NCBI RefSeq assembly: GCF_000478925.1
Contig: NZ_AP013072.1
Location: 1,156,501-1,220,500 of the forward strand
DNA: 64,000 nt
From: Streptococcus anginosus subsp. whileyi MAS624
Lineage (GTDB): Bacteria > Bacillota > Bacilli > Lactobacillales > Streptococcaceae
Direction of reading: 5' to 3'
The notes under the pieces: generated by a model
What the model saw: only the letters and a program-made list of their open reading frames with translations
Databases searched by the model: none
What the model was told of the DNA's origin: nothing
Program-made: the position numbers and the translations under genes
Part shown: positions 23,638-36,246 of the stretch, one piece after another
Layout: each line of letters starts with the position of its first letter
Numbering within the stretch: the stretch's first letter is position 1

Positions 23638-24467
23638 ATGCTGAATTTACAACACTTGGAGCAACTCATTGTTTTCTAACAGGAGGGAACTTTGTCTAAA
23701 GCAGCCGAAGTCCTACTCATCTCTCAGCCATCCTTAACTCGAAATATGCAAATACTGGAAGATGAATTGGGAGTTATTCTTTTTGAGCGAAGAAAAAATA
23801 AATTAGGTTTTACGGAAACCGGTCATCAAATTGTTAAACTAGCCAAAAAATTCCTGAAACAAAAATTTCTCGATGATGTACAACATTTTGCATTAAAAGA
23901 AAGTATTATTTTTGGTGGCGTTAATGCACCGGAAGCCATCTTTGAACTGGAAAGTCGTATAAAAAAAGGCTTGGAGCAACACATTTAAATTGAGCAAAAG
24001 ACGAGTGACGAATTGGAGAAAGCTCTGGACGATGAGAACGTTCACTTCATTGTAACAGACTATCCTATCAAAAAAGATCATATTCTTTCCATGGGTCTTT
24101 TCATGGGGCAACTTTACTTATCCGTTCCCTTGACTCACCCGTATGCCACACGAAAAGAGATAAAGCTTGCAGAATTGCTAATTTGACTATGCTGCTGCGC
24201 TCGGATCTAGGCATTTGGCAGCCATTAGTCAATCAACTGACGCAAACAAAGTTTATTGTTCAAAAAGATCGGGCAGCCTTTGTTGATTTAGTAAATGCTT
24301 CTGCATTACCAACTTTTTCTACCAATATTACTCAACAAAACACTGAAGAATCCACTGTGAATAGCCAACGTATCCAGATTCCTATCTCGGAAAAAGAAGC
24401 TACCAAGACTTTCTACATTTCCGTTTTGAAGAAGAACAAAGCTATTTTACAGGAGTTGGTGAAATGA
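23638..24467 (+). pseudogene. LysR-family regulator, decayed
   Basis: From ATG 23638 (AAGGAG upstream) the frame reads MLNLQHLEQLIVF and stops at TAA 23677, then continues in the same frame QEGTLSKAAEVLLISQPSLTRNMQILEDELGVILFERR, the LysR winged helix. Further stops (near 23986 and 24183) and at least one frameshift break the effector domain, whose last segment reads 24183-24467. Original length would be about 275 residues. The HTH alone could be re-initiated at TTG 23692 (98 codons), but function is unlikely. Confidence 0.85.
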
Positions 24468-24552: not shown

Positions 24553-25064
24553 AAATTACTAACCGCTTGGGAACAGCGGAAGTTGGGGGAAGTGGCGGTG
24601 TCTTTTTCTGGTGGTACCCCTTCTGTTGGGAATTCCAAATATTATAATGGTGAAATTCCTTTTATTCGTTCTGCTGAAATCAATTCAGCAATTACTGAGC
24701 TGTATCTAACAGAAGAAGGATTAAAAAATTCATCAGCAAAAATGGTAAATGTTGGTGATATACTTTATGCACTTTATGGTGCAACAAGTGGTGAAGTTGG
24801 TATATCAAAAATAAACGGGGCAATTAATCAGGCTATTTTAGCAATTAAACCTTACGATGCCTATAATTCTAAATTCATTGAGCAATGGTTGAAAAATCAA
24901 AAGAAAAATATCATTGATAAATATTTACAGGGAGGGCAAGGAAATTTATCTGCTGCTATTGTAAAAAATTGCTTATTCCTTTCCCCTCTCTCCCCGAACA
25001 ACAAGCCATCGGCGATTTCTTTTCCACCCTAGACTGCTCCATTGCCCTTCATCAGCGTGAGTAA
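24553..25064 (+). pseudogene. Silent hsdS cassette (single TRD)
   Basis: The frame begins right after TGA 24550-24552 with no start codon and enters AWEQRKLGEVAVSFSGGTPSVG. It continues as a type I specificity TRD (IPFIRSAEINSA..., GDILYALYGATSGEVG), and would end LPEQQAIGDFFSTLDCSIALHQRE at 25062-25064. A one-base shift at an A-run (GTAAAAAATTG, near 24961-24971) puts the last 30 codons out of frame; one extra A restores ...IVKKLLIPFPSLPEQQ. This is a storage copy for recombination with the expressed hsdS at 26035-26571, to which it is inverted. Confidence 0.8.
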
Positions 25065-26546
25065 TTTAACAGATTTTGGAGGTGGAATTATGATGACATT
25101 TACATCAGAGACTCTTTTTCATGAATATTTCAAAGAATGGATTAAGCTTTTTAAAGAGGGGGCAGTCAGAACTGTCACATTAGAAAAATACTACCATAAT
25201 CAAAAGGAAATAGAAAGGTTAGCTAGCCGTCTGACATTGGGACAAATAGATCGAACAATCTATCAGCAGTTGCTAAATGCATATGCTTTAACTCATGAAA
25301 AACAAACTGTGATAGACTTTCATCATCAAGTCAAGGGGGCTATCCTTGACGCAGTTGATGAGGGATATATTCAGCGTGATCCAACGCGAAAAGTAATTTT
25401 CAAAGGGAAACCACCAAGACCTAAAAAAGCCAAATATCTGAATCAATATGAGCTACATAATTTATTATCTGATTTGAAATTGACAAATGAAATTAATTGG
25501 GATTGGTTGATTTTGCTGATAGCAAAGACCGGCTTGAGATTTTCAGAAGCACTAGGTTTAACGCCTGATGATTTTGACTTTATTCACCAAACTATTTCCG
25601 TAAATAAAACTTGGGATTACAAAAACCACACCGGTTTTCAACCAACAAAAAATCGCTCCTCCATTCGAAAAGTTCAAATTGATTGGCAGATTGGCATGCA
25701 GTTTCAACAGCTTGTAAAATCTATTGAACACGATGAACCGATATTTGCAACTGATACAATTTGCAATTCAACCCCCAATAAATGGCTGGAGCGTCACTGT
25801 AAAAAGATAGGGATTCCAGTTATCAGTATCCATGGCCTCCGTCACACTCATGCATCTCTTCTAATGTTTGCGGGAGTTTCTATCGCCAGTGTTTCAAGAA
25901 GATTGGGCCATTCGTCAATGACCACAACACAAAAAGTTTATATGCACATCATTCAAGAGTTAGAAAATCAAGATAATGATCTAGTTATGAGATATTTATC
26001 TGGACTAGTCTAGGGTAGTTCGGAATCATGCAATCTACTCACGCTGATGAAGGGCAATGGAGCAGTCTAGGGTGGAAAAGAAATCGCCGATGGCTTGTTG
26101 TTCGGGGAGAGAGGGGAAATTAAAATTTAAAGATGAAAAATCACTAAAACTTATACTTCTGCCATCTCTAATACCGTAAGTTACAGCTTCCAATCTCTTT
26201 ATAAAGTCCCTACTAGTTAAAATATTCTTCCAAAATAAATCTGAATGTTCATCGAGTTTTACAAAATCAAGAATTGTGTATGCTGGAGAAGTAATACCTT
26301 CAATAATAGAATGAGCAAAGCCCCCTTGAAATGAGCGAAGGTGAATTACAAACTGTCCAGGTACGACCCTTTTGTAATTTTTCAAACTACTTTTATCATA
26401 TTTTATATCTATGCCTACATCATCTCTTTTCACCATTCCCAATTCTTGGGAGGCAGACAAAACAGGCAAATCTGGATGATTTTTATCAGATACCGATTGA
26501 AAAATCTTATCTGACTTCCGCTGTTCCCAAGCGAAAAGAAAAAAGC
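24563..26546. repeat. Invertible hsdS-recombinase segment with two inverted-repeat pairs
   Basis: Pair 1: GCTTGGGAACAGCGGAAGT on + at about 24564 and on - at about 26545 (the AWEQRK box). Pair 2: about 80 bp coding FPSLPEQQAIGDFF...LHQRE at 24985-25064 (+) and 26035-26115 (-), nearly identical. The recombinase gene lies between the pair-2 copies. The AWEQRK box also occurs on - at about 29270-29297 in the third hsdS. Inversion at pair 1 or pair 2 would exchange TRDs or tails between the two hsdS copies. Confidence 0.85.
25090..26013 (+). CDS. Tyrosine recombinase of the hsdS inversion system (PsrA/CreX-like)
   Basis: 308 residues, start at ATG 25090 (MMTFTSETLFHEYFKEW) with GGAGG 7 bases upstream. 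Core-binding domain (about 1-100), then catalytic residues in TGLRFSEALGL, HGLRHTHASLL, LGHSS and YMH. No AP2 arm domain, so shorter than the integrase at 20635. Streptococcal type I systems carry a recombinase of this type (CreX/PsrA), which inverts hsdS modules and gives phase-variable methylation. The location inside inverted hsdS copies supports the same role. Confidence 0.9.
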   Translation: MMTFTSETLFHEYFKEWIKLFKEGAVRTVTLEKYYHNQKEIERLASRLTLGQIDRTIYQQLLNAYALTHEKQTVIDFHHQVKGAILDAVDEGYIQRDPTRKVIFKGKPPRPKKAKYLNQYELHNLLSDLKLTNEINWDWLILLIAKTGLRFSEALGLTPDDFDFIHQTISVNKTWDYKNHTGFQPTKNRSSIRKVQIDWQIGMQFQQLVKSIEHDEPIFATDTICNSTPNKWLERHCKKIGIPVISIHGLRHTHASLLMFAGVSIASVSRRLGHSSMTTTQKVYMHIIQELENQDNDLVMRYLSGLV

Positions 26547-26571
26547 AAGAAATTTTTCCTGCGTTTTCTAT
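26035..26571 (-). CDS. hsdS: HsdS half-subunit, expressed position, start codon altered to ATA
   Basis: From 26571 the frame reads (I/M)ENAGKISCFFLF-AWEQRKSDKIFQSVSDKNHPDLP..., one TRD, then LPEQQAIGDFFSTLDCSIALHQRE and stop: 178 residues, half the normal HsdS. It begins 1 base after the hsdM stop. Where a start is expected (TGGAG, 7 bases, then this codon) the sequence is ATA, not ATG. The first canonical start is TTG 26469, inside the TRD. Either the S subunit is off, or ATA is used by translational coupling. Confidence 0.75.
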   Translation of the reverse strand: MENAGKISCFFLFAWEQRKSDKIFQSVSDKNHPDLPVLSASQELGMVKRDDVGIDIKYDKSSLKNYKRVVPGQFVIHLRSFQGGFAHSIIEGITSPAYTILDFVKLDEHSDLFWKNILTSRDFIKRLEAVTYGIRDGRSISFSDFSSLNFNFPSLPEQQAIGDFFSTLDCSIALHQRE

Positions 26572-26572
26572 G

Positions 26573-28168
26573 TTACATCTCCACTCCCAGCCGACGTAAT
26601 TGGTCTGCGATAAGGGCTTCTAATTCCGCTATTTCCGCTTCATCTTGAGCGATAAGGCGGGTTATCTCATCCAGATCTATCTCCTCTTCCTCTTCGAAAG
26701 TATCAACATATCGAGGAATGTTTAGATTAAAATCATTCTCTTTAATCTCTTCAAATGAAACTAGTCGAGCATATTTGTTCACATCTTGACGATTTCGGAA
26801 AGTTTCAATAATTTTTTCAATGTGAGTATTGTTTAAGGTGTTTTGATTCTTTCCCTTATCAAAATCTTTACTGGCATCAATGAAAAGAATGTCTCGATTT
26901 TCTTTATTTTTTCTGAAAACAAGGACAGTTGTGGGAATGCTTGTTCCATAAAAGAGATTGGCTGGCAGACCAATAACGGTATCCAAGTAATTCTTTTCAA
27001 CTAGCGTCTGACGGATTATTAATTCAGCAGCTCCCCGAAAGAGCACGCCGTGCGGCAAAACAATGGCCATGGTACCTGTATCATTCAGATGGTAGACACT
27101 GTGGAGAATAAAGGCAAAATCCGCCTTAGAAGCAGGAGCTAATTTCCCATATTCTGAAAAGCGCGGGTCTTTTAGCTTGTTGTCAGCATTGTCCCATTTA
27201 GCAGAATAGGGGGGGGTGGCTACTACTGCATCGAAGCTGCGGGGATGGTCAACCCCTTTTTCGTCCGGTCCGTCCGGCCAATCACTTTCCAAGGTGTCAG
27301 CATTGCTCAGATTCATGTTACTATAAGTAACACCGTGCATCATCAGATTCATCCTAGCCAAGTTATAGGTCGTTGTATTAAGCTCCTGTCCAAAATACTT
27401 AATTGCTCCAGGCTTTTGACCATTTGGCAATTCATTCCCAACTGTCAGCAAAAGAGAACCCGAACCCATAGTTGGGTCATATACAGAAAAGGTACGCTCG
27501 GTTTGTTCAACCTTATCCGTGACAATCTTAGCTAGAATTTGACTAACTTCATGCGGTGTGTAAAATTCTCCACCTTTTTTCCCTGCTGAAGCCGCAAACT
27601 TCTTGATTAATTCTTCATAGATAAACCCTAAAATATCTCTACCGTCATCACTCTTGTAGTTAATATCATCCACTAATTTGACAATTCGATTGAGCGATTT
27701 TGCCCGATCATTGGTAGAAGAACCAAGACGCGTATCTCCCAGATTGATATCATTAAAAACTCCACGAAAATCCTGCACCGCTTCTTTGTTCAGTTCCGCA
27801 TTGTGATTGAAATGGTCAAAAATTGTTTGATAATCGCTCGGGATAACCTCATTGTTTTCAATGCGAGCCAATAAAGAGAGCCATGTATCTTCAGGAGCAA
27901 TCGCATACCCTAAACTAGACGCAATATCTTCCAGATAATCTGCCAACTCCTCACCCGTTGCCTGCTCTTTATACAGTTGGTTGATTGTCTTACCATCTTC
28001 TAGATCTAAAATAGCATTGTTAATCAGGTATTGCTCCTGATGCTCGGACAAATAGCGATAAAACATAAAGGCCAAGATATAGTTTTTATACACAGAAGCA
28101 TCCATGTTCCCGCGCAGTTCATTGGCCATTGCCCATATTTTATTTGTAATTTCTTGTGTTTGTGACAT
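26573..28168 (-). CDS. hsdM: Type I methyltransferase subunit HsdM
   Basis: 531 residues, start ATG 28168 (MSQTQEITNKIWAMANELRG) with GAGGATT upstream, two bases after the fic stop. Helical N-domain, KKGGEFYTP, SAM motif I DPTMGSGSLL (about 231-240), then motif IV VVATPPYSAKW at about 315-325. The expected N6-adenine motif is (N/D/S)PP(Y/F); here Thr318 stands in the first position, encoded within a C8 run. The C-terminus is an Asp/Glu-rich helix that contacts HsdS. Otherwise full length and intact. Confidence 0.92.
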   Translation of the reverse strand: MSQTQEITNKIWAMANELRGNMDASVYKNYILAFMFYRYLSEHQEQYLINNAILDLEDGKTINQLYKEQATGEELADYLEDIASSLGYAIAPEDTWLSLLARIENNEVIPSDYQTIFDHFNHNAELNKEAVQDFRGVFNDINLGDTRLGSSTNDRAKSLNRIVKLVDDINYKSDDGRDILGFIYEELIKKFAASAGKKGGEFYTPHEVSQILAKIVTDKVEQTERTFSVYDPTMGSGSLLLTVGNELPNGQKPGAIKYFGQELNTTTYNLARMNLMMHGVTYSNMNLSNADTLESDWPDGPDEKGVDHPRSFDAVVATPPYSAKWDNADNKLKDPRFSEYGKLAPASKADFAFILHSVYHLNDTGTMAIVLPHGVLFRGAAELIIRQTLVEKNYLDTVIGLPANLFYGTSIPTTVLVFRKNKENRDILFIDASKDFDKGKNQNTLNNTHIEKIIETFRNRQDVNKYARLVSFEEIKENDFNLNIPRYVDTFEEEEEIDLDEITRLIAQDEAEIAELEALIADQLRRLGVEM

Positions 28169-28169
28169 A

Positions 28170-28775
28170 TTATAAATCCTCAGTCCTGTATAAACTGTAT
28201 CCCTCATAGTAATAACTATGATCAATCCCTTTCATGTAAAGTTCTCGGTTAGTTGTATCTCGCGTGAGAGCTTTTCTCAAGATATGTTTTATTTCAATAT
28301 CCCTGATTGGACTTCGCTCCATCGCAAGCAGATAATCGTCCTTGTCCACCTTAGACCAATCAACAACCTGTCCTAACTCTTTTTTCAAGATTACATCCAA
28401 CCAAATCCGCATGCTTCTACCATTCCCTTCTCGAAAGGGATGGGCAATATTCATCTCAACATATTTTTCAACGATTTCCTCAAACGTATTCTGAGGCATG
28501 GCAGACACATTTTCCAAGGAAGCCTCAAGATACATAACTGGTGCAAAGCGAAAACTTCCTTTGGCAATATTGACTGTACGAACCTTGCCCGCAAAATCAT
28601 AAATTTCTGAGAACAAATAAGCATGAATGGCAGCTAGACTGTCATAAGAGCCAACTTCCAAGGTGTCTAAGAAGCCTGTTTCGAACATTTCAGCTGCTTT
28701 TTGCTTGCTGATTTTTTCCTCTTGCCGGGCTAATTCCGTTGAGTCTGTTAAATGCAGTTTATTTTCTAAAACCAT
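28170..28775 (-). CDS. Fic-domain AMPylase, class III autoinhibited type
   Basis: 201 residues. Complete active motif HPFREGNGR at 112-120 and, at the C-terminus, SYYYEG (187-192), fitting the (S/T)xxxE(G/N) inhibitory helix of class III Fic proteins. The protein should therefore be an intact, self-inhibited nucleotidyl transferase, with the target unknown. It lies between hsdS (14 bp before it) and hsdM (2 bp after), in the same transcript, so it is built into the restriction operon rather than being a neighbour. No separate antitoxin ORF is visible, as expected for class III. Confidence 0.9.
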   Translation of the reverse strand: MVLENKLHLTDSTELARQEEKISKQKAAEMFETGFLDTLEVGSYDSLAAIHAYLFSEIYDFAGKVRTVNIAKGSFRFAPVMYLEASLENVSAMPQNTFEEIVEKYVEMNIAHPFREGNGRSMRIWLDVILKKELGQVVDWSKVDKDDYLLAMERSPIRDIEIKHILRKALTRDTTNRELYMKGIDHSYYYEGYSLYRTEDL

Positions 28776-28789
28776 ACAGTTCTCCTTTC

Positions 28790-29365
28790 TTAAGGAAATA
28801 TTTTTTGCAAAAGCGCCTTCTTACGAAGTTTCAAATGCTCAAGCTTACGTTGATGAAGGGCAATGGAGCGATCCAGGGTCTGGAAAAAGTCGCCGATGGC
28901 TTTTTGTTCGGTGAGAGAAGGAATATAAACTCCAAACTCATCCAGAAACGTTTTAATTACATGAGGAATATTCGGTGTTCTATACTTCTCATATATTATT
29001 TGTTGTCTTGATTTCAATTGTTGATAAATAAATAAGCTACTTTCTGAAATTGTATACGCTTTTAATGTAGAACCTAAAGCTCCTTCAAAACCATAATACA
29101 AAGTACCTGCCTGAGAACCATCCCATAAAATAATTACATCATCTAGATATGTATCTTTGACAGCATTAACCTTAACAATTTGTCCGCCATTCAAATATTC
29201 TGTATCAAGATATACAGACTCATCCCCAATCATATCAGCTTTTGCTTTGCCCTTTTTTTCAGCGCTCACCACCTCTCCCAACTTCCGCTGTTCCCAAGCA
29301 GGGGCATTTTTGAATTCTGGGAAGCGTAATTGTGGGATTCGCTCCTTGTTTTTCTCTTTTTCCAC
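28790..29365 (-). CDS. hsdS: HsdS half-subunit (single TRD) in the hsdS-fic-hsdM operon
   Basis: 191 residues, GTG start with AGAGGAAAGAAC upstream (MEKEKNKERIPQLRFPEF). N-terminal RFPEFKNAPAWEQRKLGEV box, one TRD (YLNGGQIVKVNAV...WDGSQAGTLYYG), then LTEQKAIGDFFQTLDRSIALHQRKLEHLKLRKKALLQKIFP. It ends where a normal HsdS would continue into TRD2. Such half subunits can dimerise to form one S unit. Its AWEQRK and EQ(K/Q)AIGDFF boxes match the invertible copies, so it can take part in the shuffling. Own promoter at 29494-29521. Confidence 0.87.
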   Translation of the reverse strand: MEKEKNKERIPQLRFPEFKNAPAWEQRKLGEVVSAEKKGKAKADMIGDESVYLDTEYLNGGQIVKVNAVKDTYLDDVIILWDGSQAGTLYYGFEGALGSTLKAYTISESSLFIYQQLKSRQQIIYEKYRTPNIPHVIKTFLDEFGVYIPSLTEQKAIGDFFQTLDRSIALHQRKLEHLKLRKKALLQKIFP

Positions 29366-29418
29366 GTTCTTTCCTCTTTTTTTCTTAATTTGACTTTGTT
29401 AAAATTTTCATCATATCT

Positions 29419-29441
29419 GTAAAAAGACACCGGTGTTTTAC
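29419..29441. promoter_or_regulatory. Palindrome in the hsdS-fic-hsdM leader
   Basis: GTAAAAAGACACCGGTGTTTTAC, near-perfect inverted repeat centred on ACACCGGTGT, between the promoter and the hsdS start. Could be an operator or a leader hairpin followed by CTTTTTAC on the - strand. Confidence 0.5.
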
Positions 29442-29493
29442 GTCCAGTGCCCTTAAATAAGTTCCGAAAAACGTTACCGCTATTAATAATTTA

Positions 29494-29521
29494 ATTATAA
29501 CAGCTTTCACTATTTTTTCAA
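29494..29521 (-). promoter_or_regulatory. Promoter of hsdS-fic-hsdM
   Basis: On the - strand TTGAAA (29516-29521), 16 bp, TATAAT (29494-29499). Confidence 0.75.
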
Positions 29522-29586
29522 CCAAAGCACCATTGTTACATCTCTTTTTCTTGCTACAAATGTTGAAATAAACTCCCGCCCCTTCC

Positions 29587-29718
29587 TTTACTTTTCCTCA
29601 ATCAAAGTGTATAATGTAATTATAAAGATAACTTGAGAAGGATGAACGCTGGGTCCCAGAATGGGGTAGGTAGATGATACTGAGCATTCCTATGTGCCTG
29701 GGGTTATCTTTTTATTTT
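29587..29718 (+). ncRNA. Candidate small RNA or structured terminator
   Basis: A -10 TATAAT (29610-29615) with a fair -35 TTTACT 17 bp upstream predicts a + strand RNA from about 29622. It begins AAAGATAAC and ends GTTATCTTT + TTATTTT (29703-29718), so the 5' and 3' ends pair and the 3' side forms a terminator; total about 95 nt. The interior is G-rich (GCTGGGTCCCAGAATGGGG) and has only an 11-codon ORF. It is convergent with the gene at 29712-30677, whose stop it touches, so it may alternatively be only that gene's terminator. Size and end-pairing recall the streptococcal 'asd'-type RNAs; not verified. Confidence 0.5.
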
Positions 29719-30677
29719 GATTTTTTAAGACTTTCAACAAATTTGTCGGGGGTCTTTTTAATTTCAGCAACAATAAATTCAACAAACTCTTGTAAATATG
29801 TATAGTTTTCAATATTCCCCACAATATGTTTATAGGAGTATTTAGGATTGTCTTTAATGTTGTAAAATTTAATCACCAGACCAAGCACATAGCTATTAAA
29901 CCCTTTTTTGTATCCAAGGTTAACCTGTATCTTCTTGAGTCGCTCTTGAACAGCAGTAATGACATTCCCAAATGAATACTTATGAGTATCAGATGGATCT
30001 TTTAGTTCCTTTACAATTGAAACTTCGGTATCGGCAAAACGGTTGATACTTACCACAAAATCCGCCTCATCTTTTTTCTTAGTTATATATAAATTCTGAC
30101 GAACATTGATAGCAAACTTCTCCGAATTATATTCTTTACTTAAGACATCAATTTCATTGGCTTGTCTGATAAATTTTTCCGCAATTTCAGGAGGATACTT
30201 CAACTTGATTTCTTCATTTGTCAACGGTTCGTAGTTGACACTTAGTGTTAGAAAGTTTTGTGCGATATACTCTGTTACATCTCGATTGTGAAACCTTTCC
30301 ATCTCAGTAATAAAGTTCAAAACACACGCTTGAAATAACGGTGCATATTTCACTTCATAATCTTCTGTAATATAGTGAGTGCTAATGTTCCGTAGCTCAA
30401 TGATTCGCTCCAAATTTAATCGAATTCTTGTATTTTTATCAGAATAAATCTTCTTAACAACCGATTCAAGACTCAGAGTCCTATCGTTTTTATCCTTGAA
30501 ATAGATTGATATATTTCGATTTAACATCTCTGCTTTCAACATCAATTCCCAAGCATTGCATATAAAGAAACTAAATCCCTCTATTCGATAACGTATGGTT
30601 GGTTTATTATAAATTTCTAATCCCATAATAAAAGCCTCAACACTTTTATCAACCAATCTTTTACTTAAGTCTTCCAA
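29712..30677 (-). CDS. DUF3644-like protein with HEPN RNxxxH motif
   Basis: 321 residues using TTG 30677 as start, with AAGGAG 5-6 bases upstream; the longer frame to 30734 has no ribosome site. The N-terminal half (VEAFIMGLEIYNKPTIRYR, NAWELMLKAEML, then IIELRNISTHY) matches my recollection of DUF3644. RNISTH at about 96-101 is an Rx4H motif of HEPN ribonucleases. The C-terminal half is mixed and ends KTPDKFVESLKKSK. Encoded between hsdR and hsdS on the same strand. A tRNA- or RNA-cleaving back-up effector, comparable in idea to PrrC beside EcoprrI, is an inference. Confidence 0.72.
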   Translation of the reverse strand: MEDLSKRLVDKSVEAFIMGLEIYNKPTIRYRIEGFSFFICNAWELMLKAEMLNRNISIYFKDKNDRTLSLESVVKKIYSDKNTRIRLNLERIIELRNISTHYITEDYEVKYAPLFQACVLNFITEMERFHNRDVTEYIAQNFLTLSVNYEPLTNEEIKLKYPPEIAEKFIRQANEIDVLSKEYNSEKFAINVRQNLYITKKKDEADFVVSINRFADTEVSIVKELKDPSDTHKYSFGNVITAVQERLKKIQVNLGYKKGFNSYVLGLVIKFYNIKDNPKYSYKHIVGNIENYTYLQEFVEFIVAEIKKTPDKFVESLKKSK

Positions 30678-30830
30678 TGTATCTCCTTTTCTTTCTCCCC
30701 CATTTAACTGCCTTCCAACTAACTCTTGCAACAAAAACGGCTCAGCACTGGTACGCTTGGAATTTTCCAGAGGCGGAGCTAAGCCGTAATCCTAGCTCTA
30801 TTCTACGTTTATTTCGATTATTTGTCAATC

Positions 30831-33800
30831 TCATCTCTCTGTCAAATCGTCCGCCAGCTGGTAAATGGCTTGACGCAGGCTATTCCGGTATTTGATCTTT
30901 GAGAGAGCTTGAACAGCGTCATCACTAGCCATGACTTTATAATTGCTGCTGGCTTGGGTCACAATATCTTGTATCTGCCCTGTATCATCCAGATCTTGCT
31001 GCCCAAAGCGGTGACGGCTAAACAACTGACGCATTTGACTGCTAGTGATAACATCCGTAATTCCCCACTTCAAACGAAAATCAAGCAGCGTCCGGTCGAG
31101 ACTGATAATACTTGCCTCTTGAATAATACTCTTGCTATCATCTTCATTCAATTTAGCGGGATAGTGGAACTCACTGCCAGCCGGAGGGAAGTGTCCTTTG
31201 ATAATCATATCTGCTGCATCCACGATCTGTTGAGCATAGCTCCGATCGTCCAAACCATTGGCAAACTGATTGATTTTTTCCTGTGTTGCTTCTGCCTCTT
31301 CTATCCGACCTTCGTGTACCTGATTCAAGAGGGCTTCTACCAATTCTGTCAGATAGTCGTAGTCAACCTGAACATCCTTGATATGCGTCATCCGCAGCTC
31401 AATCTGATAGAAAGGAATTTTCTTTGCTTTAGAAAGGTGCGTCTTGAGCTCATTTGTCAAAACAGTCGTCAGCATTACTTCTTGCGTGCTTGTCATGCCC
31501 AGAGCTTCAATGAGATCATCTGGGTTATCATAGTCGAAACCTTCTACTACATCACTATCTGGATTATAATCATATTGCTTCAATTTAGCAATGCCAGCAT
31601 TATAATTCTGAAGCAACTCCAACATTTTTTCCTTTTTCTTTTCAGAAGGTGGAAGTTGGGTGAAAGATTCCGTCATCTCTGACAGAGTTTGAACGATTTG
31701 CTTCACTTTGTTAAACAGTTCTCTAAACTCTGGCGCAGTAATGCCATCTTCCTTATTTTGCTCGTGGAGTTCTTTGTCTGATAATTTGGCAGAATCCTTG
31801 TTGGCGTAGATAGCCAATGCCTTATTCATCAGCTTTTCATTCTGAGCAGGCCAGCGATAATTCACCACGCGCCCCCATGGTTTTTCCTGCATGTCTGAGA
31901 CACGATTCGTTCGTGAATATGCCTGTATCAGCCCAGCACCTTTCAACGTGCGATCGACATACAGTGTATTGAGCTCTGGAGCATCAAATCCCGTCAGAAG
32001 CTGATCAATCACAATAACAAGATCTAGAAACTGTCCATCTGCGGCCGTTTTATTCAATCGTGAAGTGACATCTTCAGTGTAGCCTGAGACGTTGTCTAAA
32101 CCAAATTTAGTGCCAAAAGTAGCATTATAAACCTGCATAGCTTCATGTAGCCCTTTATTGGTAGCTACCATGCTATCATTGTTAGAAGCATTAAGGCTGA
32201 ATGTGACTGCTACTTTCAAAGTTTGACTCTCTTTTCCAGCTTCGAGCAACTCTTGATTAACTCGCTGAAACTCTCTAAAATACATCATCGCCATTGGCGT
32301 GCTTGCTTTCCCGCCTCCGACATGAGTAGTCAAGAGAGCATTGTATTTACCGTCACTGGAGCGATTACGCCAGTTAGTAAAAATATCCTTTACAACTTCT
32401 TTCACATGGTCTTCATTTTCATCATAAAAGCTGGGTTCCACAGCATCATCCATATCTTCTTGCGAGAGATTGGCGATTTTTTTCTGAATCTGCTCCTCGG
32501 ACCACATTGGATAGCGTTCCCGATAGAAGGCTGGAAGGTAATTTTCCTTCATTTCTTCTTCGCTAATGGTGGTCTCAAAGTCGACTTTAAATCCTAATAC
32601 ATTGCGATCCGCAATCGCCTCACGGATGGTGTAGGCATGCAGCAGTCTACCAAAAACATCCTCTGTCCGCACTTCTTTTCCCATATCGTCAAACATCGGT
32701 GTCCCCGTGTAGCCAACCCAAGCTGCTCGCTTAAAGGCTTTTTGAATATCTGAGAAAGAGCTGCCGCCGGTTGACCGGTGTGCTTCATCTACTACAAAAA
32801 CTATATTTTTCTCAGGTGATTTAAAGGACTTACGATTGATGAGTGTGTTCAGTTTTTGAATCGATGTGATAACGATACCATTCTCTTTTGATTTTAACTT
32901 TCGGCTTAAATCAGTTGTATTTTTTGTATCAAAGATTTTACCATCGTCTTTTTCACCCGCTCCATCTGGATCATAGGCTTGATAATTTTCGGTTGTCTGA
33001 TTGGTAAGCGCAATCCGGTCTACGACAAAGACAACCTTATCAATCTTAGGCATACGGCTAGCTAGCCATGCTGTTTTAAAGCTGGTAATGGTCTTCCCAG
33101 AGCCCGTCGTATGCCAGATATAACCTACTTTATTAGCTCCCATTTCAAAATCAACCTTTTTCAGTCCTTCAATGACCTCCTGAGTGGCATAGACCTGATA
33201 GGGACGCATCACTTTTAGCATCTGTTTGTTTTTGGTTCCATCCAAAATCATATAATTGGTCGCCATCTGGTGCGCCATTGGAATAGAGAGCATGGAGTCC
33301 GCAAACTCTTTCCAATTTCGAACAATGCTATTGTCACTTTTACGCTGCCAGTTAAAAGCAAAATCCTTGTTAAACTTATCTGCAGTTGTGTTCGCCATGT
33401 ACTTGACATTATTTGGTGTAATGGCAACTAAAATTTGTACAGTTGAAAAAATATCGCGATATTGATTTTCTTCAATATACTGGTGCATTTGGTTGAGTGC
33501 TTCATTGACATCATGAGTATCCTTTTTTTCTTCGATCTGGATAATTGGCAAGCCGTTGATCAGAAGCGTTGTATCAAAACGACGATCCTGCTTTCCAGCA
33601 ATAACTGCAGGCCGCTCAATCTGACTGACTATCTGATAAATGGTGTCACCTGCCCCAATCTGTCTTTGGTCAAAGACAGTCAAAAATATATGCTGTCCGT
33701 CATCTGAGTCAATCCCAATCTCTGAAATGCCATTCAGCCCATACAAAAACTGACCTGCCGCATATGGCGTGTGAAGCTCTGAGATAATCGCCTTCACTTG

Positions 33801-34040
33801 AGCAAACTCAGTCGTGCTAAGTGGACGTTGCAATCTTTGATAATTGTGCTGCTCCAGTATCTTCTTGAAATTCTCCCAGAGCGCCTCCGTTGTTTTAATG
33901 GACGGTTCATAAGTCCATAATTTGGTTTTCGTCACATAATCTGCTATCCGATCATGAACTGTCGAATCACTTGTACCTTGATTAATCGTACCTGTCGACA
34001 AATATTCAATAAGTTCTTTCTCAAATTGCGCTTCTTTCAT
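30831..34040 (-). CDS. hsdR: Type I restriction endonuclease subunit HsdR
   Basis: 1069 residues, full length. N-terminal PD-(D/E)xK nuclease (FDTTLLINGLPIIQIEEKK, about 153-171), Walker A TTGSGKT (about 313-319), DEAH box VVDEAHRSTGG, further SF2 motifs (GYTGTPMF; IVIDQLLTGFDAPELNTLYVDR; QAYSRTNR) and a C-terminal helical domain that binds M2S. ATP-driven translocation and cleavage of unmodified DNA. AAGGAGG with 9-base spacing; the start overlaps the upstream S-like gene by 20 bp. No lesion seen. Confidence 0.95.
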   Translation of the reverse strand: MKEAQFEKELIEYLSTGTINQGTSDSTVHDRIADYVTKTKLWTYEPSIKTTEALWENFKKILEQHNYQRLQRPLSTTEFAQVKAIISELHTPYAAGQFLYGLNGISEIGIDSDDGQHIFLTVFDQRQIGAGDTIYQIVSQIERPAVIAGKQDRRFDTTLLINGLPIIQIEEKKDTHDVNEALNQMHQYIEENQYRDIFSTVQILVAITPNNVKYMANTTADKFNKDFAFNWQRKSDNSIVRNWKEFADSMLSIPMAHQMATNYMILDGTKNKQMLKVMRPYQVYATQEVIEGLKKVDFEMGANKVGYIWHTTGSGKTITSFKTAWLASRMPKIDKVVFVVDRIALTNQTTENYQAYDPDGAGEKDDGKIFDTKNTTDLSRKLKSKENGIVITSIQKLNTLINRKSFKSPEKNIVFVVDEAHRSTGGSSFSDIQKAFKRAAWVGYTGTPMFDDMGKEVRTEDVFGRLLHAYTIREAIADRNVLGFKVDFETTISEEEMKENYLPAFYRERYPMWSEEQIQKKIANLSQEDMDDAVEPSFYDENEDHVKEVVKDIFTNWRNRSSDGKYNALLTTHVGGGKASTPMAMMYFREFQRVNQELLEAGKESQTLKVAVTFSLNASNNDSMVATNKGLHEAMQVYNATFGTKFGLDNVSGYTEDVTSRLNKTAADGQFLDLVIVIDQLLTGFDAPELNTLYVDRTLKGAGLIQAYSRTNRVSDMQEKPWGRVVNYRWPAQNEKLMNKALAIYANKDSAKLSDKELHEQNKEDGITAPEFRELFNKVKQIVQTLSEMTESFTQLPPSEKKKEKMLELLQNYNAGIAKLKQYDYNPDSDVVEGFDYDNPDDLIEALGMTSTQEVMLTTVLTNELKTHLSKAKKIPFYQIELRMTHIKDVQVDYDYLTELVEALLNQVHEGRIEEAEATQEKINQFANGLDDRSYAQQIVDAADMIIKGHFPPAGSEFHYPAKLNEDDSKSIIQEASIISLDRTLLDFRLKWGITDVITSSQMRQLFSRHRFGQQDLDDTGQIQDIVTQASSNYKVMASDDAVQALSKIKYRNSLRQAIYQLADDLTER

Positions 34041-34611
34041 GGCTGCTTGCCTCCTTCAGTTGAAATAGTAATCGTTTCGTTTTGAGTTCTATTAAGTGTT
34101 TTTGAAGTGCTTCTAAATGAAGTTGTTTTAAATAGAGTTTTCCTATTAAGGATTGACGCTCAATAGTCGGTAATGCTGGCAATCGTAACTCTTTTACTTG
34201 TTTTACTGTGTATTTTAATGTTGAAGAACCTTGTAAACTCAACTGAAATTGATGTTTAATGCTCAAATCTTCATTTAAAAGATAGACGATATAACTTGGT
34301 ATGACAGGAGTATCTACAACTAATCTAAGATAGTTCTGAGTGATTAAGAAGCCTGCGTGATTCTTCCCGACAATTGCCGCTTTCCCGGATATCAAACTAA
34401 ACACAATATCTCCTTCTGCAACTGTCAAAACAGGATCAAAGGTCCGAATGCTCTTTGTTTCACTCTGATTCATTTCTATTTGGGATAAATCATTTTCCAG
34501 CTCATTTTGTCCGTAGAAAAAATAGAGGGGAGCAGCCTTATCTACAGTTTCTTTAATTCTAAATTGAGGAGATCCACTTTCAAATGTGATGAATTCTGTC
34601 ACCTTTACCAT
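34021..34611 (-). CDS. HsdS-like half-subunit preceding hsdR
   Basis: 196 residues: an N-terminal TRD-like part (GSPQFRIKETVDKAAPLYFFYGQ, EGDIVFSLISGKAAIVGKN) followed by LRLPALPTIERQSLIGKLYLKQLHLEALQKHLIELKTKRLLFQL, the conserved helix of type I S subunits. It has only one TRD and differs from the AWEQRK-type copies, so it is not part of the invertible set. First gene of the hsdR transcript; promoter at 34657-34684. Its role could be an alternative S half or a regulatory S-like protein. Confidence 0.75.
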   Translation of the reverse strand: MVKVTEFITFESGSPQFRIKETVDKAAPLYFFYGQNELENDLSQIEMNQSETKSIRTFDPVLTVAEGDIVFSLISGKAAIVGKNHAGFLITQNYLRLVVDTPVIPSYIVYLLNEDLSIKHQFQLSLQGSSTLKYTVKQVKELRLPALPTIERQSLIGKLYLKQLHLEALQKHLIELKTKRLLFQLKEASSHERSAI

Positions 34612-35191: not shown

Positions 35192-36047
35192 TCATTTTCT
35201 CCCCAGAAATCCTAAAAAGAGATCTACTGTGCTGGCTTCTTGATGATTAAAGAAAAGGCTGGTTTGGGTATCCATACTTGCAATCTTTGTCATATCTTCT
35301 GCACTGAGTTCAAAGTCAAAAACATCAATATTTTCCTTCATTCGCTCAAAACGTGAATACTTAGTCAAGCAAACAATTCCCCGTTGAACTTGCCAGCGAA
35401 CCATGACTTGTGCAGTGGATTTACCATGCTTATCAGCAATACTTTTGAGAATTGGATTGTTGAGAATGTCACCACGACCTTCTGCAAAAGTAGCCCAAGA
35501 TTCAATTTGCACCTTATTTTTTATCATATTTTCTTGTGCGAATATCTGTTGATTCAGTGGGTGAGTTTCCACTTGATTGACTTGTGGTGTAATTTCATTG
35601 AAAGCTACAATGTCGCTGAGACGATCTGGATAGAAATTAGACACACCAATCGCTCGAAGTTTTCCTTCTTTGTAAAGTTGTTCCGAAGCACGGTACACGG
35701 TAGGCACCATAATAGTCACCAAAAGGTTGGTGGAGCAACATAAGATCCAGATAATCTAACTCCATTCTGTCAAGAGATTCTAAAACTGAGGCATAAGCCT
35801 TGTCGTATCCATAGTTGGATAACCAGACTTTACTAGTGATGAAAAACTCTTTGCGATCAATCCCAGACTCTCTAATCGCCTCGCCTACTTCCTTTTCATT
35901 GGCATAGGCTTGAGCAGTATCAAAATGACGATAACCTGCCTTGATAGCATTTAGCACAGCACTCTTGGTATCTTTGGGAGCAATTTGGTACACTCCAAAA
36001 CCTAAAATTGGAATTTCGACACCGTTGTTTAAGGTTATATTTTGCAT
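35192..36047 (-). pseudogene. Aldo/keto reductase, frameshifted by a 7-bp tandem duplication
   Basis: The N-terminal part (ATG 36047, MQNITLNNGVEIPILGFGVYQI, AGAGGAAATCAC upstream) includes GYRHFDTAQAYANE with Asp/Tyr and the catalytic Lys in TSKVW. The frame then shifts at 35687-35700, where CACGGTA is present twice in a row. Removing one copy joins DYYGAYR to ASEQLYKEGKLRAIGVSNF and restores one protein of about 283 residues to the stop at 35192. All other AKR motifs are intact, so the break looks recent or reversible. Confidence 0.9.
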
Positions 36048-36246
36048 GTGATTTCCTCTTTTCGCAATTTTTATCATAAGTATAACGCTCTTTTCAGAAA
36101 AAGTACAATAACAAAATTGCAGAGTGGTATGCAAAAAATGAATAGCAAATTATCGTCCGATTCATAATTTATAACAACAAAAAGAGGAGATTAGGATAGA
36201 TGACCATGATTGTGTCAGCAGCCCTAGGCGTCTGTCCTACTCCTTC

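Follow-up and report, generated by a model that had tools for sequence, protein, structure and literature searches.

A predicted RNA gene facing a HEPN (DUF3644) gene, together with class III fic, in a type I restriction locus of Streptococcus anginosus

Overall organization of the locus

The 64,000-nucleotide stretch of Streptococcus anginosus subsp. whileyi MAS624 analysed here (NZ_AP013072.1, positions 1,156,501 to 1,220,500; hereafter the window) carries a type I (EcoR124-like) restriction-modification (R-M) locus, hsd, with an embedded gene for a HEPN protein of the DUF3644 family and an embedded class III fic gene; the DUF3644 gene is faced by a conserved, predicted gene for a structured RNA. 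The locus lies on a single-contig streptococcal chromosome of 2.12 Mb, and for two of its proteins the closest named relatives come from S. anginosus and S. intermedius. The minus strand carries, in this order, an S-like half gene, hsdR, DUF3644, hsdS with a single target recognition domain (TRD), fic, hsdM and a silent S cassette; the plus strand encodes a tyrosine recombinase and holds a second silent S cassette. Matches to Pfam and NCBIfam models were obtained for HsdR, HsdM, Methylase_S, Fic (NF046029, NmFic type), DUF3644 with EC042_2821, and the tyrosine recombinase. A preliminary description of this DNA had listed the protein-coding genes in the same order, and all of its coordinates and strands were confirmed; the RNA gene was absent from it.

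A conserved, predicted RNA gene facing DUF3644

The RNA gene (29624..29713, plus strand, about 90 nt) is convergent with DUF3644 and came to light when the non-coding DNA 3' of DUF3644 was used as a query and proved to be more highly conserved than the coding sequence. Against a covariance model of the family, the copy in the window reaches 90.9 bits. Of 80 genome loci with DUF3644, 78 have the RNA convergently at the 3' end of the gene, and a covariance model search placed it in 69 of 75 viral loci, a set with many near-identical members. This leaves eight misses. In seven of them (L044, L103, L364, L366, L379, L383, L391) the sequence stops 0–54 nt past the match, and the eighth (L392) retains only a remnant of the gene; among viral loci with sequence beyond DUF3644, the RNA is present in 69 of 70. 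Run on 62 loci (705 kb) without DUF3644, the model returned two copies, both already known and included in the model alignment. The median identity is 87% for the RNA vs 70% for the DUF3644 coding DNA, and the RNA is the better conserved of the two in all 19 loci that could be aligned at length.

The structure that we drew up from the alignment has 26 pairs, and 92.8% of its cells pair. Seventeen of the 26 pairs change on both sides, with 226 such cells against a shuffled mean of 70 (0 of 500 shufflings as high) and 12–27 cells in a slid control, the latter comparison being favoured by a structure that was taken from the sequences themselves. RNAalifold alone predicted 24 pairs, 14 of them with two-sided changes. 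G.U combinations far outnumber A.C combinations (309 vs 15 cells), which indicates that the transcribed RNA strand is the one opposite DUF3644; this bias and the covariation of the inner helices led us to reject a plain terminator or a DNA site as the explanation. A promoter-like sequence, TTTACT-17-TATAAT (29587..29615, plus strand), lies upstream of the RNA in the window. Among the aligned copies, 75 of 78 have a -10-like box at this place, 48 of them perfect; shuffling gives 39 on average (at most 51), and an interval further upstream gives 28. In addition, 56 copies have a -35-like box. We also rejected a known RNA family, as Rfam E-value scans gave no match over the RNA. No description of an RNA for DUF3644 was found in the literature searched, where coverage of preprints (bioRxiv) was thin, so that one may already have been published.

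The DUF3644 protein and its distribution

The DUF3644 gene (29712..30677, minus strand) starts with TTG and encodes a protein with a C-terminal EC042_2821 domain. It combines a HEPN fold with the Rx4-6H motif, present here as an intact R-N-x3-H in which the catalytic R and H are invariant in 24 of 24 aligned rows, and on this basis is predicted to be a HEPN ribonuclease. PF12358 and PF18740 are its sole Pfam matches, the fusion to an ABC ATPase that characterizes PrrC is lacking, and no sequence relatives were found in the PDB at an E-value of 1 or better. PADLOC lists the window protein as PDC-S19, a single-gene system; PDC stands for phage defence candidate.

None of the 80 genome loci comes from the species of the window. 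Eleven of them are type I hsd loci. The RNA accompanies DUF3644 in ten of these, and in the remaining one (L103) the sequence stops where the gene does. One of the eleven, L091, has the order Fic-hsdM-DUF3644. DUF3644 is absent from all 17 nearest relatives of the window locus, which served as our comparison set of hsd regions, and it occurs also in satellite phages and in prophages without hsd. The presence of EC042_2821/DUF3644 in R-M operons has already been described (PMC3710099); among the papers listed by a literature search, this was the only one to contain both DUF3644 and HEPN. Two further arrangements were observed. In L066 (6601-10951), DUF3644 immediately follows a type IIG (Eco57I/TaqI-type) enzyme, and in Treponema bryantii (L064, 4156-14519) hsdM, an S gene, a KAP NTPase, a recombinase, a half S gene, DUF3644 and hsdR form one block, which is a similar composite in a spirochaete.

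The class III Fic protein

The fic gene (28170..28775, minus strand) encodes the intact Fic motif HPFREGNGRSMR and, at its C-terminus, SYYYEG, which conforms to the inhibitory motif (S/T)xxxE(G/N) of class III; from these motifs the product is predicted to be a class III AMP-transferase. The preliminary description had noted an intact Fic motif and the RNxxxH of the HEPN protein, and both motifs were confirmed. PADLOC assigns this protein to PDC-S04, again a single-gene system. Among proteins of solved structure it is most similar in sequence to EfFIC and NmFic, which likewise consist of a single Fic domain with the FIC motif and a C-terminal inhibitory glutamate (PMC6408439). The difference lies in the genomic setting: the window gene belongs to an hsd operon, while in other streptococci the gene is found at the parE-parC junction.

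An order-wide sample contained a class III relative in 41 of 295 genomes. Among the 26 class III loci that were read, three from outside Streptococcus, belonging to two other families of Lactobacillales, sit in hsd loci; the order is hsdM-hsdS-fic-hsdR in L281, hsdM-fic-hsdS-recombinase-hsdS'-hsdR in L280, where the FIC motif is degraded, and hsdM-fic at a contig end in L282. Genome G081 (L197) has a decayed class III fic in the same slot between hsdS and hsdM as in the window, and DNA similarity spans both junctions. The same interval is occupied by a class II Fic in seven of the 17 related regions (Pfam Fic domain confirmed on one); these seven proteins are 98–100% identical to one another and thus probably reflect a single event. 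The recurrence of fic and HEPN genes in unrelated hsd loci, on which the preliminary description had made its case depend, was found (L280, L281, L282, G081, the seven regions with a class II Fic and the 11 type I loci with DUF3644), at positions that vary. We considered whether the hsd-located fic genes form one clade; a tree of 54 rows, of which only four are hsd rows, needs at least three changes of label. Clusters of Fic proteins with 98–100% identity and intact motifs are present in other sequences, one of them named S. intermedius.

For Streptococcus, we examined 20 regions around the best-ranked class III matches, skipping one row with stops. In 17 of them (range L204–L223) fic lies between parE and parC; one region ends before parC and two place the gene elsewhere. 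For one of the regions, Pfam matches to ParE and ParC were obtained. In G052 (L245) it is a class II Fic that lies between parE and parC. Such placement is possibly a target-linked neighbourhood. NmFIC, a class III enzyme, is reported to AMPylate gyrase (PMC6408439). In the genome of the window, the parE-parC gap measures 3.8 kb and is occupied by genes other than a class III fic; by eye, this gap (L288, 2989-6713) contains a C5-methyltransferase-like gene and other open reading frames.

Proposed function of the two modules

Our preferred explanation, which we consider slightly better than evenly probable, is that the locus is a type I system with two embedded modules, a HEPN-RNA pair and a self-inhibited Fic, and that the HEPN protein is likely kept inactive by the RNA until a phage infects or the RNA is lost. 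The RNA would be transcribed, would bind DUF3644 and would block cleavage of RNA by it, three steps that are inferred by analogy with RCd22, the RNA of AbiF, and its Abi_2 HEPN protein. Shut-off of host transcription by a phage, or decay of the RNA, would free the HEPN protein. Fic would be restrained by its own C-terminal motif and would modify topoisomerase subunits, and the two effectors would provide a second line of defence beside restriction. Since both modules would be self-contained, their occurrence with and without hsd would be explained, and the locus would consist of several defence modules under separate control, not of one guarded machine. An effector located between hsd genes is also seen in other type I loci that harbour defence genes, such as DarTG2 between hsdS and hsdR (PMC12255303); those modules have other effectors, whereas the window has an RNA component.

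The closest parallel is AbiF/RCd22, in which a phage-borne HEPN protein stands beside a structured RNA of about 90–100 nt with a promoter-like sequence of its own (PMC12373285). As in AbiF-type and type III RNA-antitoxin systems, a structured RNA gene adjoins the gene of the putative toxin. The RNA of AbiF lies upstream on the same strand and contains two copies of the Rfam motif RF03085, and its binding has been demonstrated (PMC12373285); the RNA of the window, in contrast, is convergent at the 3' end instead of upstream and co-transcribed, has no repeats that we could find and no Rfam match, and is only predicted to bind. We suggest tentatively, at somewhat less than even likelihood, that DUF3644 together with the RNA that faces it constitutes a new class of RNA-antitoxin systems serving as mobile defence against phages, with the solitary RNA copies of phages acting as counter-defence and chromosomal ones, such as that of genome G210, being anti-addiction relics. 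DUF3644 is a widespread HEPN family, and if an RNA is dedicated to each member, protein and RNA together make up the functional unit, tests with RNA-free DUF3644 constructs could mislead, and solitary RNAs become testable as counter-defence. This would be a second HEPN-RNA pairing besides that of AbiF, whose line is reported as the probable origin of Cas13 (PMC12737573). For Fic, the entry of classes II and III both into type I loci and into the streptococcal topoisomerase IV operon makes a target-linked role testable.

Several observations weigh against the preferred explanation. A convergent, repeat-free RNA is unlike those of AbiF or the type III antitoxins; single-sequence folding of the RNA is unremarkable (z -1.45), and some of its pairs are weak (of 77 rows, 41 fail to pair at 27-79, 26 at 1-98 and 23 at 35-40). 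The class III Fic SPD_0496 of S. pneumoniae was inactive on GyrB/ParE in one study (PMC7479194). The altered motif IV of HsdM and the silent S cassettes, both described below, suggest a partly decayed locus. Finally, the RNA also occurs alone. A survey of 275 Streptococcus genomes, in which copies of at least 79 bits were counted and ten weaker rows excluded, gave 27 copies, 16 of them adjoining DUF3644 (in three cases a partial or decayed gene) and 11 without it. Likewise, among 119 viral stretches with an exact match to the RNA core, some of whose contigs overlap the 75 loci above, 85 have a convergent DUF3644 and 34 have the RNA beside unrelated genes.

These solitary copies favour the alternative that fares best, which we nevertheless regard as unlikely: the RNA would belong to mobile elements and serve them in a function of its own, for instance in the control of lysogeny or as counter-defence cargo, and its adjacency to DUF3644 would reflect a shared cargo slot. 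All 34 viral RNAs without DUF3644 score as RNA (42–100 bits); two lie at stretch ends, one is next to a broken gene and 31 have other neighbours. When ten neighbours of solitary RNAs were compared with Pfam, nine were assigned to other families (Abi_2 twice, SIR2, NYN, DUF3800, DUF2326, Bro-N, Fic and reverse transcriptase) and one to none; Abi_2, SIR2, NYN, Fic and reverse transcriptase are defence-like domains. Six of the 11 chromosomal copies share one site after an adcA-like gene. The copy in G210 lies 19 nt past hsdR and before hsdS, the slot occupied by DUF3644 and its RNA in the window, and others are near Fic, reverse-transcriptase or NTPase-like genes. What speaks against a shared cargo slot is that DUF3644 genes in hsd loci, away from integrases, retain the RNA wherever sequence follows the gene, and that nearly every viral DUF3644 with sequence beyond it does so too. 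In L401, L402 and L403, the solitary RNA has reverse-transcriptase, Fic and large NTPase-like genes as neighbours.

Restriction and modification genes

The hsdR gene (30831..34040, minus strand) encodes the motor and nuclease motifs of a type I enzyme. A promoter-like sequence, TTGAAA-16-TATAAT (29494..29521, minus strand), precedes hsdS-fic-hsdM, and a terminator-like hairpin (26545..26562, minus strand) lies directly 3' of hsdM. The hsdM gene itself (26573..28168, minus strand) starts 2 nt past the stop codon of fic. Its motif IV reads TPPY and not (N/D)PP(Y/F), so the catalytic Asn is missing; all 21 relatives compared have N or D at this residue, as do the 120 nearest proteins (119 with N, one with D), and intact copies are present in the nearest cluster, at 98% identity. 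Modification may thus be dead in this assembly, methylation perhaps having been lost on account of this change together with the single TRD of HsdS. The change adjoins a run of C and could conceivably be a sequencing error.

These features would fit a decaying restriction island in which the accessory genes are passengers without joint function, an explanation that also draws on the silent S cassettes, the decayed fic of G081 and the apparently broken genes on both flanks. We rate it low, in that Fic, the HEPN protein and the RNA have all retained their conserved motifs and the intact-motif Fic clusters described above exist in other sequences.

The preliminary description had proposed a guarded system, in which the hsd complex holds the HEPN protein and Fic inactive and an attack on it releases them. 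PrrC, which is restrained by EcoprrI, and the published proposal of layered defence offer a precedent, with HEPN and Fic/Doc effectors in type I loci (PMC3710099), and the layered R-M/HEPN/Doc idea has thus been in print since 2013. The embedding part of the claim stands: the effectors lie within hsd operons, fic is only 2 nt from hsdM, and such embedding recurs. Restraint of either effector by the R-M complex found no support, and we consider a guard quite improbable. Unlike PrrC, DUF3644 has no ABC ATPase and is paired with an RNA, and nothing points to the R-M system as its antitoxin; it occurs in phages and satellites without hsd, as does Fic in other settings, and the classes and positions of the effectors differ among relatives. 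HsdM, moreover, is possibly inactive here. With modules that were acquired separately, each apparently with a built-in brake of its own, no guarding role has to be assigned to the restriction complex.

Specificity genes, cassettes and recombinase

The hsdS gene between hsdR and hsdM (28790..29365, minus strand, GTG start) is complete but encodes one TRD instead of the two usual for type I HsdS; the same slot is filled by an hsdS of 382–428 aa in 14 of the 17 related regions. It is probably the sole usable S gene of the locus, and its product could possibly act as a homodimer. All matches of a genome-wide Pfam search for S domains fall within the hsd locus. Of the two cassettes that flank the recombinase, the one at 26035..26533 (minus strand) has no ATG, GTG or TTG ahead of its TRD and is separated from hsdM by the terminator-like hairpin, and that at 24564..25063 (plus strand) also lacks a start codon and loses its frame at an 84-nt repeat. 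The recombinase (25093..26013, plus strand, PF00589) is bounded by this perfect 84-nt inverted repeat (arms 24980..25063, plus strand, and 26036..26119, minus strand) and by a 20-nt inverted repeat, so that a tyrosine recombinase is combined with inverted repeats common to the S cassettes, as in a shufflon. Close relatives of the recombinase are present in 13 of the 17 related regions.

The fourth S-like gene (34021..34611, minus strand) overlaps hsdR by 20 nt and encodes a single-TRD protein that has no match in Pfam and only weak matches to S-subunit models. It belongs to a family of S-like proteins of about 190 aa with 275 relatives, is 50–58% identical to the other Bacillota rows aligned, and has a counterpart adjoining hsdR in 16 of the 17 related regions; judged by the alignments, its conservation is unlike that of a variable specificity gene. 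An AlphaFold2 model (predicted local distance difference test score, pLDDT, 90.1) consists of an S-type TRD and a long helix and matches the folds of HsdS and Esub1. The closest fold is that of Esub1, which was crystallised together with the phage protein paratox; a PDB sequence search with the S-like protein gave weak matches only, and a literature search for Esub1 listed no paper on it. The four half-size S genes of the preliminary description are therefore real as sequence, and only 28790-29365 looks usable as a gene. We rejected four active S halves, given two cassettes without start codons, a terminator after hsdM and a conserved S-like family at 34021. The associated idea that S-S dimers multiply the set of targets lacks support, because a single S gene looks expressible.

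The pneumococcal tvr (SpnIV) locus similarly unites hsd genes, half-S cassettes, a tyrosine recombinase and a gene of the Fic/Doc superfamily (PMC6265443); tvr has direct repeats, excision-reintegration and phd-doc (PMC6265443), whereas the window has inverted repeats, a self-inhibited class III Fic and the HEPN-RNA pair. That Fic controls S-gene shuffling instead of serving in defence, as the Doc-type TvrT represses tvrR (PMC6265443), is very improbable: most hsd loci with Fic do have a related tyrosine recombinase (the window, the seven class II loci, L280 and L281), but it is as common in related loci without Fic, is absent near the fic remnant of G081 (L197), and in the window lies on the opposite strand, past the terminator.

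The genes on either side of the locus, identified by eye, look broken: a LysR-like gene with stops (23640-24467) and an aldo/keto-reductase-like gene in two frames (35192-36134), which suggests an insertion site. In three related regions the interval between hsdR and hsdS carries other genes (L187, 9067-11562; L199, 7943-9460; L202, 10043-11572), one of which matches HamB models and two of which weakly match SIR2 models.

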